64,000 nt of DNA, taken from NCBI RefSeq assembly GCF_000007705.1, contig NC_005085.1, positions 4,535,752 to 4,599,751 of the forward strand, written 5' to 3'. Shown piece by piece: positions 15,164 through 51,478 of the stretch. Made by a program: the position numbers and the translations under genes. Below the pieces are notes generated by a model. The model worked only from the letters and a program-made list of their open reading frames with translations. It had not been told where the DNA came from and did not search any database. The DNA comes from Chromobacterium violaceum ATCC 12472. GTDB lineage: Bacteria > Pseudomonadota > Gammaproteobacteria > Burkholderiales > Chromobacteriaceae. The stretch's first letter is position 1. Every line of letters begins with the position of its first letter.

Positions 15164-15253
15164 CGGGGACTCTTGAAAGATGAATCTTGCTGCCGACATT
15201 CTAACACCACGCTATACTCGCCGCTGGCCGCGCGACACGCGGCCGCAAGCTTA

Positions 15254-15396
15254 CGTCTTCGGGGCGGGGTGCAACTCCCCACCGGCGGTATGGCGCGCAA
15301 GCGCCGAGCCCGCGAGCGCCTTTGCCTGACGGCAAAGGGTCAGCAGATCTGGTGAAACGCCAGAGCCGACGGTAATAGTCCGGATGAGAGAAGACG
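15254..15396 (+). ncRNA. FMN riboswitch (RFN element)
   Basis: The conserved RFN core is visible: CGTCTTCGGGGCGGGGTG, CTCCCCACCGGCGGTA, GTCAGCAGATCTGGTG, CCAGAGCCGACGGTAATAGT and CCGGATGAGAGAAGACG. The ends pair to form P1 (CGTCTTC with GAAGACG). It lies 135 bp upstream of ribB and on its strand. FMN binding would turn off ribB-ribE. Close to the gene, CTCAA (15503-15507) and TTGAG (15516-15520) can pair over the ribosome site region, pointing to translational control. Confidence 0.95.
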
Positions 15397-15530
15397 ACGC
15401 CAGCTCCCGCCGCGCCCGCGGCCGGAGGCACGTGTCGTATCCGCGCGGTTTCCCGCGCCGGATGGCTTTGCGCTATCCGCTTCAAGCCCGAGGGACGTGT
15501 TTCTCAATCTTGTTTTTGAGGACCGTTTCC

Positions 15531-16174: not shown

Positions 16175-16885
16175 ATGTTCACCGGCATCACCCAGGCCGT
16201 CGGCCGCATCGCCGCCATCTCCGAAGGCGAAGCCAGCCGCCGCGTCGCCATCGACTTCCCGGACGGCTTCTGCGCCGGCCTCGCCCAAGGCTGCAGCGTT
16301 TCCATCGACGGCGCCTGCCTGACCGTGGCCGCGCCGCCGCGGGGCGAGCGCGCCGAGTTCGACCTGATCCTGCCGACGCTGGTCACCAGCACGCTGGCCG
16401 CGTGCCGCGTCGGCGACGCGGTCAACGCCGAGCGCGCGCTGCGCGACGGCGCCGAGATCGGCGGCCACGCGCTGTCCGGCCACGTCGACTATCAAGCCGT
16501 GGTCGAGCAGCGCAAGGAATGCGGCGACAACCTGTGCCTGCGGCTGTCGGTGCCGGCCGGCGCGCTGCGCTACCTGTTCGCCAAGGGCTACGCGGCGCTG
16601 GACGGCGTCAGCCTGACCATCGCCGACATCGACAAGCAGGCCGGCTGGATCGAAGTGTGGCTGATCCCGGAAACCCGCCGCGCCACCTCGCTCGGCGCCA
16701 AGCAACCCGGCTGCCGGCTGAACCTGGAAATCGAGCGCGACACCCAGGTGCTGGTCGACACCATGCGCGAAGCGCTGGAGGACAAGCTGGCGGCCTTGAT
16801 GCCGCTGCTCGCGCCCAGGCTGGACGAACTGGCACCCGCGCTGTTGCCGGCGGCCCGCCGCCAGCCGGCGCTGGCCGCGCGCTGA
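16175..16885 (+). CDS. ribE: Riboflavin synthase alpha chain
   Basis: This 236-residue enzyme dismutates two 6,7-dimethyl-8-ribityllumazines to riboflavin. Two homologous lumazine-binding halves are visible: MFTGITQAVG with IDGACLTV, then GGHALSGHVD with LDGVSLTI. The IDGACLTV motif has Asp where most enzymes have Asn, and the C-terminus has an extra roughly 25-residue Ala/Pro/Leu-rich tail. Both are small departures from the family; a lumazine-binding paralogue is therefore possible. A GAGGAGG ribosome site precedes the ATG at 16175. It shares the FMN-riboswitch transcript with ribB. The ribH and ribA genes are not here. Confidence 0.88.
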   Translation: MFTGITQAVGRIAAISEGEASRRVAIDFPDGFCAGLAQGCSVSIDGACLTVAAPPRGERAEFDLILPTLVTSTLAACRVGDAVNAERALRDGAEIGGHALSGHVDYQAVVEQRKECGDNLCLRLSVPAGALRYLFAKGYAALDGVSLTIADIDKQAGWIEVWLIPETRRATSLGAKQPGCRLNLEIERDTQVLVDTMREALEDKLAALMPLLAPRLDELAPALLPAARRQPALAAR

Positions 16886-16928
16886 CCGCAGGCGGCGGCG
16901 AACCAATCGGCCTCCCGCCTGTCTGCTG

Positions 16929-16962
16929 AACAGGGGCGCATCCGCGCCCCTGTTCCACTTTC
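16929..16962 (+). terminator. Hairpin after ribE
   Basis: AACAGGGGCG and CGCCCCTGTT form a ten-base stem with a six-base loop, followed by CCACTTT. The T-run is weak, so it may only partly separate ribE from the kinase gene starting at 16971. Confidence 0.55.
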
Positions 16963-16970
16963 ATGACGCC

Positions 16971-18374
16971 ATGCTCCGCTTCATTTCCTTCCGAGGCCTG
17001 CTGTTGACGGGCTTCCTCGGCGTCGCGCTGACTCCCGCCGCGGCGCTGATGCAGTTGCGCCACGAACTGGGCCTGGCCGCCGACAGCGCCCAGCACCACC
17101 AGCGGCAAGCCCAGCGCTGGCAGGACATCGCCCGCCTGTCCCAGGAGCAGGCAGTTCAATTCGAACGCGCCAGCCGGCAGGCGGCGATCCTGCGCGACCG
17201 CAAGCTCACCGAAACCGCCAGCCAGGCGCGCGGCGAACTGCAACGCGCGCAGCGGACGCTGCGGCTGGACGCGCCGCCCGAGGCGCTGCCCGGCATAGAC
17301 GCCGCGCTCGGCCTCGCCGCGCAGTTGCAGACGCTTCCGCCCTCCCGCCGCCAGCAGCGCGACGCCCTTTTCCGCCAGCTGAACCGCGTGCTGGACCAAC
17401 AGCAGCAAACGCTGGCCCAGGCCGGCGAAAAACGTCAGGCCAGCTGGCGCGACGACATCGAGCGGATGCGGCTGCAGGCCAACCGGCTGGCCTGGCTGGC
17501 GCTGGCCGCCGCCGTGCTGCTGGCGCTGATCGTCACCCTGCTGATCCACGCCCCGCTGCGCGGCCTGCAACGCCGCATCGCCCGGCTGGCCGGCGGCGCG
17601 CGCCAGCTGAATTGGCGGCAGACGGGACCTGCCGACCTGCAGCGCCTGGGCCGGGAACTGGAACAACTGGATTTGCGCCTGGTGGAGCTGGAGCAGCAAA
17701 AGACCCGCTTCTTCCGCCAGGTGTCGCACGAGCTGAAAACGCCGCTGGCGTCGATACACGAGGCCGCCGCGCTGCTGCGGGAACAGGTGGCCGGCCCGCT
17801 CAATCCGCAGCAGCGCCACATCGTCGACATCCTGGGCAACAACGCGCAGACGCTGCGCCAGCGCGTGGAGGCGCTGCTGAGGCAGGACGCCGGCCCCTGG
17901 CTGTCCAGCGCGCTGAACATTTCCGCCTTCCCCCTGCGCAGCCTGATCGAAGACCGCCTAGCGAGCTGCCAGCCGCTATGGCAGGCCAAGCGGCTGACCG
18001 TCGCGCTGGACGGCCCGGCCGGGCTGGTGCGCGGCGACGCGTCCAAGGTAGAGACCATCGTCGACAACCTGTTGCTCAACGCCATCCGCCACAGCCCCCC
18101 GGGAGGACGGCTGGCGCTGCGCTTCGCGCGCGAGCGCGGCCAGGTCTGGCTGGAAGTGGCCGATCAGGGGGCCGGCGTGCCCGGCGAGCTGCGCGACAGG
18201 ATATTCGAACCTTTCTGGAGCGGACCCGCGCCCGACGGCGAGCGTCCCGGCAGCGGCCTCGGCCTGACCATGGCGCGCGGCTACGCGCAGCTGATGGGCG
18301 GCGAGCTGCGGCTGCTGGGCGACGGCCCAGGCACCTGCTTCCGCCTCCATTGGCCTGAACCGGAGCCGATATGA
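16971..18374 (+). CDS. glrK: GlrK/QseE-type sensor histidine kinase
   Basis: This 467-residue inner-membrane kinase is the sensor for the adjacent sigma54 activator. A membrane helix at about residues 10-26, a periplasmic helical coiled region of about 140 residues, a second helix at about 173-193, a HAMP-like linker, and HisKA with phospho-acceptor H253 (FRQVSHELKTPLASI) come in order. The HATPase follows with the N box DNLLLNAIRHSP, G1 VADQGAGVP and G2 GSGLGLTMA. Its stop overlaps the lipoprotein gene start (ATGA, 18371-18374). The order kinase-lipoprotein-regulator is that of glrK-qseG-glrR. The signal is not visible from the sequence; envelope stress is the family expectation. Confidence 0.9.
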   Translation: MLRFISFRGLLLTGFLGVALTPAAALMQLRHELGLAADSAQHHQRQAQRWQDIARLSQEQAVQFERASRQAAILRDRKLTETASQARGELQRAQRTLRLDAPPEALPGIDAALGLAAQLQTLPPSRRQQRDALFRQLNRVLDQQQQTLAQAGEKRQASWRDDIERMRLQANRLAWLALAAAVLLALIVTLLIHAPLRGLQRRIARLAGGARQLNWRQTGPADLQRLGRELEQLDLRLVELEQQKTRFFRQVSHELKTPLASIHEAAALLREQVAGPLNPQQRHIVDILGNNAQTLRQRVEALLRQDAGPWLSSALNISAFPLRSLIEDRLASCQPLWQAKRLTVALDGPAGLVRGDASKVETIVDNLLLNAIRHSPPGGRLALRFARERGQVWLEVADQGAGVPGELRDRIFEPFWSGPAPDGERPGSGLGLTMARGYAQLMGGELRLLGDGPGTCFRLHWPEPEPI

Positions 18375-18855
18375 CCCCAATCGTTTTCCCGCGCCGCTGG
18401 CTGCCGCTGTTGTCGCTGCCGCTGCTCGCCGCCTGCGCCGGCGTCCAGCCGCCGCCCGCGCCGATACGCTACTGCCCCGGCAGCGACGCGCTGCTGATCT
18501 CGCTGGATGCGCCCGACGACGCCGTCCGCCAGCGCTGGCAAGGCTACGAAGCCTGCGACGGCTACCGCCTGCTGCGCGCGCTGCGCGCCAACCGCGGCGA
18601 CCCCGTCCGCCTGGCCGGCGAACTGGACAAGCTGCTGGCCGACAAGAGCCTGTCGCCGGCCGGCGCCGCGCTGGCCCGGCTGCAATTGCGCCAGGCATTG
18701 GCCCAGTCCAAATTGCAAGACCAGTCCGAGCGCCAGCAGCAGCAGTTGCGCGATCAGCAAAAGCGCATCGACGACCAGGCCGCCAAGCTGGAGGCGCTGC
18801 GCCGGCTGGAGCTGGACCTGCCCAAGCCCAACGGCCTGAATGGAGGGAGCAAGCG

Positions 18856-18859
<4 letters not shown>
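18371..18859 (+). CDS. qseG: QseG/YfhG-like lipoprotein
   Basis: This 162-residue lipoprotein has a signal sequence ending in lipobox LLAAC (Cys22). A conserved CPGSDALL segment follows, and a long C-terminal coiled coil rich in Gln, Leu and Arg begins at about residue 115. In enterobacteria QseG is an outer membrane lipoprotein that interacts with the GlrK/QseE kinase. Position between kinase and regulator with four-base overlaps on both sides supports the same role here. Sequence identity to characterised QseG cannot be judged without a search. Confidence 0.82.
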
Positions 18860-20196
<1,337 letters not shown>

Positions 20197-20199
20197 GCC

Positions 20200-20217
20200 T
20201 GTCGCCGAACAGCGACA
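20200..20217 (+). promoter_or_regulatory. GlrR-type upstream activating site 1
   Basis: TGTC, ten bases, GACA: the TGTC-N10-GACA motif reported for enterobacterial GlrR. It is embedded in a longer palindrome with arms CCTGTCGC and GCGACAGG. It begins three bases after the glrR stop codon. Confidence 0.8.
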
Positions 20218-20221
20218 GGCC

Positions 20222-20234
20222 CAAGCCATTGATA
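20222..20234 (+). promoter_or_regulatory. IHF consensus site 1
   Basis: CAAGCCATTGATA matches YAA-N4-TTGATW, the reverse complement of the IHF consensus, at every defined position. It is part of a 14-bp direct repeat (20222-20235) also present at 20327-20340. Confidence 0.65.
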
Positions 20235-20266
20235 TGACTGCCCTTTTTCCGCATCGCCATCTCCGC

Positions 20267-20284
20267 TGTCGCCTGCAGGCGACA
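20267..20284 (+). promoter_or_regulatory. GlrR-type upstream activating site 2
   Basis: TGTCGCCTGCAGGCGACA is a perfect 18-base palindrome and fits TGTC-N10-GACA. Its centre is 67 bp from the centre of site 1 and about 109 bp upstream of the predicted sigma54 start. Confidence 0.82.
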
Positions 20285-20326
20285 AAATCCGGATGGATCG
20301 CCGGCCGCCAATCGCAGAAGTCATCG

Positions 20327-20339
20327 CAAGCCATTGATA
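20327..20339 (+). promoter_or_regulatory. IHF consensus site 2
   Basis: A second exact copy of CAAGCCATTGATA, between activating site 2 and the sigma54 promoter. That is where IHF bending normally helps the activator reach the holoenzyme. Confidence 0.7.
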
Positions 20340-20358
20340 TAAAAATAAAAACAAGGAC

Positions 20359-20374
20359 TGGCACGGCGATTGCT
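20359..20374 (+). promoter_or_regulatory. Consensus sigma54 promoter of the BON-domain gene
   Basis: TGGCACGGCGATTGCT fits TGGCACG-N4-TTGCW at all defined positions. The start would be near 20385, about 75 bases before the BON-domain gene ATG. Confidence 0.92.
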
Positions 20375-20459
20375 CAATGACAGGCCAAGCGCCGCGGACA
20401 GGCCAAACCGCCGAGCCGCGGCAATGACCATCATCCCAGTCCACAAGGAGACTCATACC

Positions 20460-20795
20460 ATGCGTAAAGCCCTGATCCTCGCCAGCCTGATTCCCGCTCT
20501 GTACGCCGGCACCAGCTTCGCCGAGCAGACCCAGCCCGCCAGCGCGCCGGTCGCGCAACAGCACGCCGCCGCCAGCGCCGCCGACGCGGAACTGGGCCGC
20601 CAGGTCAATCAAGTGCTCGCCAAGGCGGCTGCCCAACTGGGCGCCAAGGTCGAAGCCCAAGTCAACAACGGCGACGTCGTATTGAACGGCACCGCGCCGA
20701 ACCAGGACGCGATCTCCCGCATCGCCGAGGAAGTATCCCGCGTGCACGGCGTGAAGAGCGTGCGCAGCCAGGTCAACCTGCAGCCCGCCGGCTAA
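20460..20795 (+). CDS. BON-domain periplasmic protein
   Basis: This 111-residue secreted protein has a signal peptide (MRKALILASLIPALYAGTSFA, cut before EQT, written here across its cleavage region only as family-typical) and a low-complexity Ala/Gln linker. One BON domain spans about residues 40-108: VEAQVNNGDVVLNGTAPNQ, ISRIAEEVSRVHGVKSVRSQVNL. BON domains (as in OsmY) are thought to bind phospholipid or envelope surfaces. AAGGAG lies ten bases before the ATG. A consensus sigma54 promoter and GlrR-type sites stand upstream, so it is probably the main local target of the GlrKR system. It is monocistronic with its own terminator. Confidence 0.88.
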   Translation: MRKALILASLIPALYAGTSFAEQTQPASAPVAQQHAAASAADAELGRQVNQVLAKAAAQLGAKVEAQVNNGDVVLNGTAPNQDAISRIAEEVSRVHGVKSVRSQVNLQPAG

Positions 20796-20844
20796 ATCGG
20801 ATTCTGCCGTCCGTCCCGGGCGGCAACCGTCCCGCATCCGTCTT

Positions 20845-20869
20845 GCCCGCTGCCACAGCGGGCTTTTTT
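20845..20869 (+). terminator. Terminator after the BON-domain gene
   Basis: GCCCGCT and AGCGGGC pair around GCCAC and are followed by six T. Confidence 0.88.
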
Positions 20870-20877
20870 CGTCGCGC

Positions 20878-21675
20878 TCAGCGCCACAAGGCCGTTTCGG
20901 TCTCCGATGCCGTCATGTAGCGGTTGATCAGCCTGCGCATGGTGCCGTCGTGGTTCATCTTGTCCACCAGCGCCTGCCACTGGCGGATGTCAGGCTCGGG
21001 AAACGTCTGCTTGGTGAATACGATGCCGCGCGGGCTCGGCGCGGACACCTTGTCCCAGTCGGCCACCCGCACGCTGTCGTCCAGATTGAATTCGCGCAGC
21101 TTCTCGCGGTAAACCATGGGCGTGGAGAAAATGCCGGCCACGCGGTTCTGGGCCAGCAGCCGATACAGCGCGTCCTCCGCCGGCACCTCCACCACCCGGC
21201 CCTTGGCCGCCAGTTGGGCGATCAGCGGATCGTAATACTCGCTGGTGCTGTAGCTGCGGACGATGGCCCAGCGCCAGGGCTCCCCCGCCTGGATGAAGCT
21301 TTCCATCGAGCGGATGCTCGCCGGCAGCTTGGGCGACAACAGCACGTATTGCTTGAGCTGGATGTAATTGAGAAACCAGTAAATGCGCTCGCGCTCGGGC
21401 GTGGAGATCGCCGACAGCGTGATGTCCAGCCTGCCCGCCTCCAGCTCCCGCCAGATGCGGGCCCGCGGCATGACCGCGTATTCGAAGCGGCAGCCGCTGC
21501 GGCGGCGCAGTTCCTCGGCCACGTCCCAATCCAGGCCGTTGCGGTCGGTATAGAACAAGCCGATAGGATAAAAGGCGAGGCGGATCGGATGATCGGGACA
21601 ATGGAAGGACGGGGTGGATGCCATCGCCATTCCCAGGCTCGCCGCCAACGCCCCCGCCGCGCATCGCCACGCCAT
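20878..21675 (-). CDS. Periplasmic solute-binding protein (SBP_bac_3-like)
   Basis: This 265-residue secreted protein has an N-terminal signal (MAWRCAAGALAASLGMAMAS) and the fold pattern of family 3 amino-acid-type binding proteins: DWDVAEELRRRSGCRFEYAVMPRARIWRELEAGRLD early, and GIVFTKQTFP with a closing helix later. It has no adjacent permease. Such stand-alone proteins in Chromobacterium-like genomes often lack a known ligand. It is separated from ruvA by 53 bp on the same strand. Confidence 0.78.
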   Translation of the reverse strand: MAWRCAAGALAASLGMAMASTPSFHCPDHPIRLAFYPIGLFYTDRNGLDWDVAEELRRRSGCRFEYAVMPRARIWRELEAGRLDITLSAISTPERERIYWFLNYIQLKQYVLLSPKLPASIRSMESFIQAGEPWRWAIVRSYSTSEYYDPLIAQLAAKGRVVEVPAEDALYRLLAQNRVAGIFSTPMVYREKLREFNLDDSVRVADWDKVSAPSPRGIVFTKQTFPEPDIRQWQALVDKMNHDGTMRRLINRYMTASETETALWR

Positions 21676-50960: not shown

Positions 50961-51036
50961 TGGTGGGTCGTGCGGGATTCGAACCTGCGACCAACGGATT
51001 AAAAGTCCGCTGCTCTACCAGCTGAGCTAACGACCC
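50961..51036 (-). tRNA. tRNA-Lys (anticodon TTT)
   Basis: 76-nt cloverleaf on the minus strand with GGGTCGT / ACGACCC acceptor arms, encoded CCA, and anticodon loop CTTTTAA. Fifth gene of a five-tRNA array. Confidence 0.97.
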
Positions 51037-51074
51037 ATCGGGATGTATTCGTATCGGGGAGGGTGCAGGGATGG

Positions 51075-51150
51075 TGGTGGGTCGTGAGTGGCTCGAACAC
51101 TCGACCTACGGATTAAGAGTCCGCTGCTCTACCAACTGAGCTAACGACCC
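51075..51150 (-). tRNA. tRNA-Lys (anticodon CTT)
   Basis: 76-nt cloverleaf with the same acceptor arm, encoded CCA and anticodon loop CTCTTAA. It differs from the TTT type also in the T-arm and variable loop. Fourth in the array. Confidence 0.97.
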
Positions 51151-51185
51151 ATCCGGTCTGCACAAAAGACAGAAATGAACTTGAT

Positions 51186-51261
51186 TGGTGGGTCGTGCGG
51201 GATTCGAACCTGCGACCAACGGATTAAAAGTCCGCTGCTCTACCAGCTGAGCTAACGACCC
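51186..51261 (-). tRNA. tRNA-Lys (anticodon TTT)
   Basis: Same sequence type as the gene at 50961-51036. Third in the array. Confidence 0.97.
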
Positions 51262-51289
51262 GCACAACGTACGGCGGCATGTCTGAGGA

Positions 51290-51365
51290 TGGTGGGTCGT
51301 GAGTGGCTCGAACACTCGACCTACGGATTAAGAGTCCGCTGCTCTACCAACTGAGCTAACGACCC
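51290..51365 (-). tRNA. tRNA-Lys (anticodon CTT)
   Basis: Same sequence type as the gene at 51075-51150. Second in the array. Confidence 0.97.
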
Positions 51366-51402
51366 GTCCGGGACATGCTACTACACTATATCAAGCTTTC
51401 TC

Positions 51403-51478
51403 TGGTGGGTCGTGCGGGATTCGAACCTGCGACCAACGGATTAAAAGTCCGCTGCTCTACCAGCTGAGCTAACGACCC
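51403..51478 (-). tRNA. tRNA-Lys (anticodon TTT)
   Basis: First gene of the array, directly after the promoter at 51493-51521; same sequence type as the other TTT copies. Confidence 0.97.

Follow-up and report, generated by a model that had tools for sequence, protein, structure and literature searches.

A putative glmY-type GlrR/IHF/sigma54 promoter probably controls the gene of a secreted BON-domain protein in Chromobacterium violaceum

Introduction

In enterobacteria, the response regulator GlrR (QseF) is familiar from its targets glmY and rpoE. The glmY promoter of Escherichia coli is described as carrying three GlrR (QseF) sites, being helped by IHF and using sigma54, with phosphorylated QseF on the upstream sites (passages of PMC6075780), and the sequence TGTC-N10-GACA has been given as the QseF (GlrR) consensus (passage of PMC8745638). 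The GlrK-GlrR pair was noted in beta-proteobacteria by a 2022 paper (excerpt of PMC8895600), and a survey from 2011 groups QseF-like regulators with outer-membrane protein production (excerpt of PMC3162934); a text search of that survey returned neither a BON domain nor GlrR. Among the matches listed for the open-licence literature, no link between GlrR and a BON gene was encountered, nor a phasing of promoter elements as described below.

In Chromobacterium violaceum ATCC 12472, candidate GlrR sites lie directly behind a glrR-like gene and in front of a gene encoding a small BON-domain protein. These genes are located in a stretch of 64,000 nucleotides (the window) of a genome of 4,751,080 bp that consists of one contig. 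The locus raises the question of whether these sites form a GlrR-dependent promoter, and which product such a promoter would deliver.

This paper describes the comparative analysis of the locus within its family and order. The comparison makes it highly probable that the BON gene is controlled from this array, which would represent a glmY-type GlrR/IHF/sigma54 promoter with a periplasmic protein as its output. The GlrR consensus and the use of IHF and sigma54 are known features, and a promoter of this type with a periplasmic-protein output would be a variant on them, in which the switch known from enterobacteria appears to aim at a secreted envelope protein.

Results and Discussion

The operon preceding the array

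Three overlapping genes on the plus strand precede the array. The first (16971-18374) encodes a GlrK/QseE-like sensor histidine kinase of 467 aa with HisKA and HATPase_c domains (Pfam), which aligns with E. coli GlrK at 30% identity across 421 positions (BLAST/alignment). The second (18371-18859) is a small ORF of 162 aa at the position of qseG, which is considered lipoprotein-like on basis of a lipobox-like LLAAC motif and its place in the operon, both judged by eye; family searches (Pfam, NCBIfam) gave no match for this ORF, and BLAST detected no significant match to E. coli QseG, partial resemblance being seen by global alignment alone. The third gene, glrR (18856-20196), encodes a response regulator of the NtrC type that combines receiver, sigma54-activating AAA+ and HTH_8 domains (Pfam). 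GlrR was the best of the 107 NCBIfam models matching this product (596.3 bits, the next model scoring 420.5), at a score below the GlrR equivalog cut-off of 763, and alignment of the protein with E. coli GlrR (444 positions) gave 55% identity, including an identical HTH stretch, RNRTEFY. The overlaps make these genes one operon of a kinase, a lipoprotein-like ORF and a sigma54-activating regulator, which is the architecture of the GlrK-QseG-GlrR (QseEGF) two-component system. Moreover, rpoN and ihfA are both present in the source genome. Elsewhere in the window, Rfam detected an FMN riboswitch (15251-15399) in front of apparent riboflavin genes, and five tandem tRNA genes with near-equal scores on the minus strand (50964-51478).

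Elements of the promoter array

Pattern scans of the region 3' of glrR revealed five elements in the order GlrR1, IHF1, GlrR2, IHF2 and sigma54. The first GlrR-type palindrome (TGTCGCCGAACAGCGACA; 20200-20217, plus strand) starts 4 bp past the glrR stop codon, and the second (TGTCGCCTGCAGGCGACA; 20267-20284, plus strand) follows 67 bp after it; both are exact matches to TGTC-N10-GACA. An IHF-type site, TATCAATGGCTTG, lies on the minus strand between the palindromes (20222-20234), and a copy of it (20327-20339, minus strand) starts 32 bp before the sigma54 promoter element TGGCACGGCGATTGCT (20359-20374, plus strand), which itself lies 92 bp after the second palindrome (start to start). The two IHF-type sites sit inside a 14-bp direct repeat, CAAGCCATTGATAT, and are the sole exact matches to WATCAANNNNTTR within 64 kb (0.23 expected), while TGGCACGGCGATTGCT is the only TGGCAC-N5-TTGCW sequence in the window (0.13 expected). 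Transcription would presumably start near 20385, if the spacing that we take to be usual for sigma54 promoters applies, which places the start 75 bp, and the end of the sigma54 element 85 bp, before the ATG at 20460. An earlier note on this DNA had proposed two such palindromes directly after glrR, two identical IHF sites in a 14-bp direct repeat and a consensus sigma54 promoter 75 bp upstream of the BON gene; all three were recovered at the above positions, the figure of 75 bp counting from the predicted start. The region thus contains the elements of a glmY-type promoter, i.e., at least two TGTC-N10-GACA palindromes, IHF sites and a sigma54 element. A consensus search for sigma70-type promoters between 20100 and 21000 found none, which is weak evidence because only 0.2 were expected from shuffling.

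Such elements might be chance matches in a GC-rich genome. The palindrome occurs five times in the window, where shuffling predicts 0.48, and lone exact palindromes are frequent, with 112 in the genome versus 68 for a reversed control pattern, so that significance rests on the pair in its context. The conservation of the array, the paralogue control, the 10.5-bp phasing and the enrichment of IHF sites presented below contradict a chance origin, and leave it a negligible probability.

The BON-domain gene

The predicted target gene (20460-20795, plus strand) encodes a secreted protein of 111 aa with a single BON domain, and has a signal peptide and an AAGGAG ribosome site, both recognized by eye. 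Pfam BON matches residues 42-108 in one stretch (E = 1.7e-12; 47.9 bits, gathering threshold 27), and a YscD BON-like model gave a further match of 23.4 bits, short of its cut-off of 27. The predicted structure has a BON-like alpha-beta-beta-alpha-beta core with block means of pLDDT of 79-86 over residues 41-110, in a model that was built from 3 sequences and has an overall mean pLDDT of 71.4. Behind the gene, an intrinsic-terminator-like hairpin followed by a T-run is found on the plus strand (20845-20869), which is weak evidence by itself as 1.0 was expected in shuffled sequences and one was found.

The BON domain is shared with DolP (YraP), OsmY and Kbp of E. coli, DolP being the best match by sequence among solved structures, albeit a weak one (E = 0.0033). 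According to the sections of PMC7806268 that treat these proteins, DolP and OsmY each carry a pair of BON domains, whereas the window protein has one; DolP is a lipoprotein that acts at the outer membrane, whereas the window protein appears by eye to have a plain signal peptide; and Kbp combines BON with LysM and lacks a signal, whereas the window protein is a lone BON domain with a signal peptide (by eye).

Conservation within the family

In a GlrR search over 61 genomes of the family, orthologues stood out at 71-100% identity, the genomes without one giving only matches of about 50% or less. An orthologue is present in 27 of these genomes (the copy in G167 being cut by a contig end), and its distribution is patchy even inside the genus of the window (11 of 19 genomes). 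Within 300 nt of the glrR stop codon, every one of the 27 loci shows a sigma54 element and one or more exact GlrR sites. Two GlrR sites with at most one mismatch each, among them a counterpart of palindrome 1, are likewise present in all 27. The BON protein occurs in 26 of the 27 genomes with GlrR versus one of the 34 without it (G180, E = 3.3e-4), an association with a Fisher p of 6e-15 before any correction for shared ancestry. The remaining GlrR genome (G158) is 61% complete, and its contig stops 333 nt after glrR, truncating a BON-gene-like start of 34 codons. Across this family, the BON gene encodes a secreted single-BON protein. In one subgroup of the genus of the window, L116 and its relatives, tandem 17-aa repeats (ASAPAEQAQRATAAK...) are inserted between the signal peptide and the BON domain.

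Conservation across the order and the paralogue control

The set of 135 glrR loci of the order comprised the 27 loci of the own family and 108 of 34 other families, of which 80 were chosen among the matches listed and 28 came from another search. In the stretch from -30 to +300 scanned past glrR, an exact GlrR site was found in 84 loci, a sigma54 element in 84, and both in 67. A separate scan downstream of glrR left 48 of the 135 loci with no exact site and 49 with no sigma54 element, showing that the array is not universal. The scan from -30 to +300 of 62 loci of other NtrC-type regulators (67 selected, 5 dropped for too little sequence), taken from many phyla and unmatched in base composition, yielded no exact GlrR site, nine sigma54-like elements and no locus with both.

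These counts bear on the reading in which the array works for a different regulator or gene, as in feedback on glrKGR, with the BON gene as a bystander neighbour. Palindrome 1 lies 4 bp behind glrR and falls within the glrR end in some relatives, which would suit such a role. The palindrome is the published GlrR consensus cited above, however, and it was absent from all paralogue loci; the sigma54 element is oriented toward the BON gene, and GlrR and BON co-occur. We therefore regard this reading as quite unlikely.

Thirteen named GlrR-like loci (L031-L042 and L063), taken from the best 80 matches, were kept outside the 135. Six of these have exact GlrR sites 2-3 kb before the glrR match, i.e., a gamma-proteobacterial bin, one of two Halomonas, Kushneria, Neptuniibacter, Arsenophonus and a Propionivibrio bin (L033, L034, L035, L037, L038, L040), and two have exact sites past it (L039 at 5436; L063 at 6003 and 6068). 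No exact site was found in the other five (L031, L032, L036, L041, L042), of which L031 and L032 have a sigma54 element and a BON gene downstream.

Helical phasing and IHF placement

Of the 135 loci, 77 (36 genera, 21 families) allowed the spacing to be measured; in these, a rule blind to phase could place both the sigma54 element and a proximal GlrR site with no more than one mismatch. Start-to-start distances between GlrR2 and sigma54 fall into classes of 70-72, 80-84, 92-95, 101-104, 112-114, 123, 128, 135-136 and 146 bp, and the best period in the tested range of 5-20 bp is 10.5-10.6 bp. At 10.5 bp the resultant R amounts to 0.78 over all loci, to 0.68 when each genus contributes a single locus and to 0.68 when each family does. 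For none of the three sets did a value this high arise in 20000 uniform draws, and when the observed distances were jittered by up to 5 bp, R was reached in 0, 0 and 1 of 20000 trials, respectively. In 72 loci the distance is no more than 2 bp off the mean phase, and two deviate by more than 2.5 bp, namely L014 (95 bp, deviation 2.7) and L165 (128 bp, deviation 4.2).

The spacing between the two GlrR sites is 64-68 bp at 72 of 75 loci and 77, 77 and 96 bp at the other three. An IHF match with at most one mismatch occurs between GlrR2 and sigma54 in 55 of 77 loci versus a shuffle mean of 9.0, and between both GlrR sites in 52 of 75 versus 4.6. In 36 of the 55 loci, IHF2 starts 32 bp before sigma54. 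Since IHF2 most often keeps this distance and the GlrR2-sigma54 distances fall into classes, changes in promoter length seem to occur mainly between GlrR2 and IHF2 and in whole helical turns. Distance classes about 10.5 bp apart, combined with an IHF2 most often at 32 bp, are as would be expected of a looped enhancer held on one helix face. Expression from synthetic sigma54 enhancers is periodic at 10.5 bp (passages of PMC4740811), and thus the natural spacing pattern fits known physics. What the present data add is the same pattern in natural promoters. From the comparison of loci, this is evidence that a sigma54 enhancer assisted by IHF has to lie on a single helix face, and the spacings that occur in nature also supply ready variants for looping tests.

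Comparison with E. coli targets and the nature of the transcript

The present locus resembles the E. coli glmY region (L152) in its TGTC-N10-GACA sites, its TGGCAC sigma54 element and its kinase-lipoprotein-regulator operon, and an IHF-like site starts 31 bp before sigma54 in glmY, compared to 32 bp at the present locus. The two differ in the number of GlrR sites, which is three in glmY (-230, -197 and -134, with sigma54 at -27) and two in the present array, and in product and place, glmY yielding a small RNA from a gene upstream of glrK, whereas the present array would yield a secreted BON protein from a gene downstream of glrR. Furthermore, the glmY sites share one phase that is about half a turn off that of the order set (deviations 4.2, 4.2 and -4.8). 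This speaks against a universal phase rule, glmY being the one promoter of its type with published tests that entered the comparison. At the QseF-activated P2 promoter of E. coli rpoE, GlrR and sigma54 likewise control an envelope-related protein gene (passage of PMC6075780), although the target there is a sigma factor and in the window the adjacent secreted protein. Two other directions were set aside: the Bordetella sigma54 regulator BP2158 (PMC11722255) was considered, and a text search of that paper gave neither GlrR or QseF nor a BON gene; passages of PMC8262913 (osmY in Pseudomonas) and PMC12194929 have no bearing on a GlrR/BON promoter.

As glmY is the E. coli target of GlrR, the sigma54 transcript might mainly be a GlmY-like small RNA starting near 20385, to which the BON ORF would be secondary; the BON leader can form a 7-bp GC stem, with a fold z-score of -2.1 (4 of 200 shuffles being as good). 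Against this, GlmY (RF00128) was found in the E. coli control and in none of the 61 family genomes, in a search whose stricter filters can lose weak matches. Rfam gave no match above gathering near the BON promoter in the scan of the 64-kb window, five weak matches over 16800-21000 that were all far below gathering and none of them GlmY, and none above gathering with eight weak matches below it over eight second-target or related loci. Moreover, leader length and sequence vary among relatives, whereas the ribosome site, ATG and signal peptide are kept (by eye), and the BON gene accompanies GlrR. A small RNA as the main product is therefore improbable. The earlier note had named a secreted BON-domain protein as the nearest target rather than a small RNA; the Pfam match bears out the domain, secretion agrees with the signal peptide seen by eye, and the 61 genomes agree with a protein target within the sensitivity of the filtered search.

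With the BON protein as the preferred output, the following sequence of events can be envisaged. By analogy with E. coli, phosphorylated GlrR would occupy the two palindromes 67 bp apart, and IHF would bend the DNA between the palindromes and again between palindrome 2 and the promoter. The resulting loop would deliver the AAA+ ring of GlrR to the sigma54-RNA polymerase waiting at 20359-20374, where ATP hydrolysis would open the promoter and allow synthesis of the mRNA for the secreted BON protein, which would then act in the periplasm. Element conservation, helical spacing and the co-occurrence of GlrR and BON lend strong support to the proposed wiring, in which GlrR, IHF and sigma54 act on the BON gene. 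Binding by GlrR and IHF, dependence on sigma54 and phosphorylation by the kinase are presumed. Judging by E. coli and by the type of product, the signal may come from the envelope and the system may report envelope state; the BON protein would presumably act on the outer membrane or its lipids. That the switch points at a secreted envelope protein suggests that the GlrR system may serve to make an envelope protein on demand.

Output genes elsewhere and the size of the regulon

BON genes outside the family were called with a profile made from the family of the window, which placed one behind glrR at 23 loci from ten further families. Fifteen of these loci (seven families) combine a GlrR site (at most one mismatch) with a sigma54 element, 13 of them belonging to the measured set, and eight have no recognised pair of site and sigma54 element. 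The BON gene is a clear candidate target of GlrR outside the enterobacteria, in the family of the window and several others. The downstream ORF was assigned in 103 of the 135 loci by a simple rule that made some errors, for instance at L111 and L120, which are BON genes that were miscalled. In single representatives with measured arrays, Pfam identified a lone BON domain (L159), BON preceded by a longer N-terminal part (L192), EF-hand plus BON (L215, L030), only an EF-hand (L183) and glycine zipper 2TM (L214, L226, L011); the remaining loci were assigned by eye or left unclassified. Secreted EF-hand-BON proteins follow glrR in several families, with a measured array at L215 and L030 and without a complete array being seen at L188 and L219, hinting at calcium as a factor in these outputs.

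Some genomes have further arrays. In two sister genera, a second in-phase GlrR/IHF/sigma54 array precedes the gene of a small secreted A/Q/S-rich peptide (L139-L141 in genus g3, L142-L144 in genus g96), with ORFs of 59-71 aa as called in the six loci. G183 has a further array before the gene of a secreted double-BON protein (L147).

An array profile was made from the GlrR2-to-sigma54 stretch of 28 loci. In the source genome it found one significant place, the array at 20267-20374, whose E of 2.9e-16 follows by construction from its presence in the training set; the next match had an E of 0.25, with 150 of the 1522 first-look candidates scored. Across the genus, the 11 genomes with GlrR scored 5.9e-12 or better and the eight without it 9.9e-4 or worse. 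The profile would miss targets that are loosely built or differently spaced.

GlrR may control the BON gene within a wider regulon, the BON gene not being its main output. The second arrays in the two sister genera and in G183 speak for this reading, and the lack of a second significant array in the source genome speaks against it, although loosely built targets would escape the profile; we consider it possible, if somewhat doubtful. Tentatively, and at somewhat less than even confidence, we propose that the GlrR switch of Burkholderiales is near-dedicated, serving few promoters, and that it directly drives a small envelope protein, either secreted or in the membrane (BON, EF-hand-BON, EF-hand or glycine-zipper), the geometry being held to the helix while the effector is swapped. 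If loop geometry is kept and the effector swapped, the enterobacterial small RNA would be one of several interchangeable outputs.

Several candidate targets were rejected. A scan for a site followed by N60..90 and a sigma54 element gave matches in 43 of the 61 genomes, many of which resemble conserved coding sequence and were set aside on this appearance, for instance G000:C1:4471863, whose sequence also occurs in genomes without GlrR. A second profile match in G170 (L241, G170:C1 near 3895200, E = 2.7e-7) has different palindromes, of the TGTCC-N8-GGACA type, and is probably a promoter of another enhancer-binding protein; by eye, this IHF/sigma54 promoter precedes an HlyD-like operon.

Finally, GlrR palindrome 1 doubles as an intrinsic-terminator-like hairpin (for example CCCCTGTCGCC..GGCGACAGGGG followed by a T-run) in 11 of the 108 loci with a first site, located just after the glrR stop codon (L125, L126, L127, L128, L129, L130, L131, L132, L002, L122 and L124). 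Palindrome 1 of the window has the hairpin arms and no T-run after them. Because the palindrome combines a hairpin with a T-run in these 11 loci, the same sequence may be an operator in the DNA and a terminator in the RNA.
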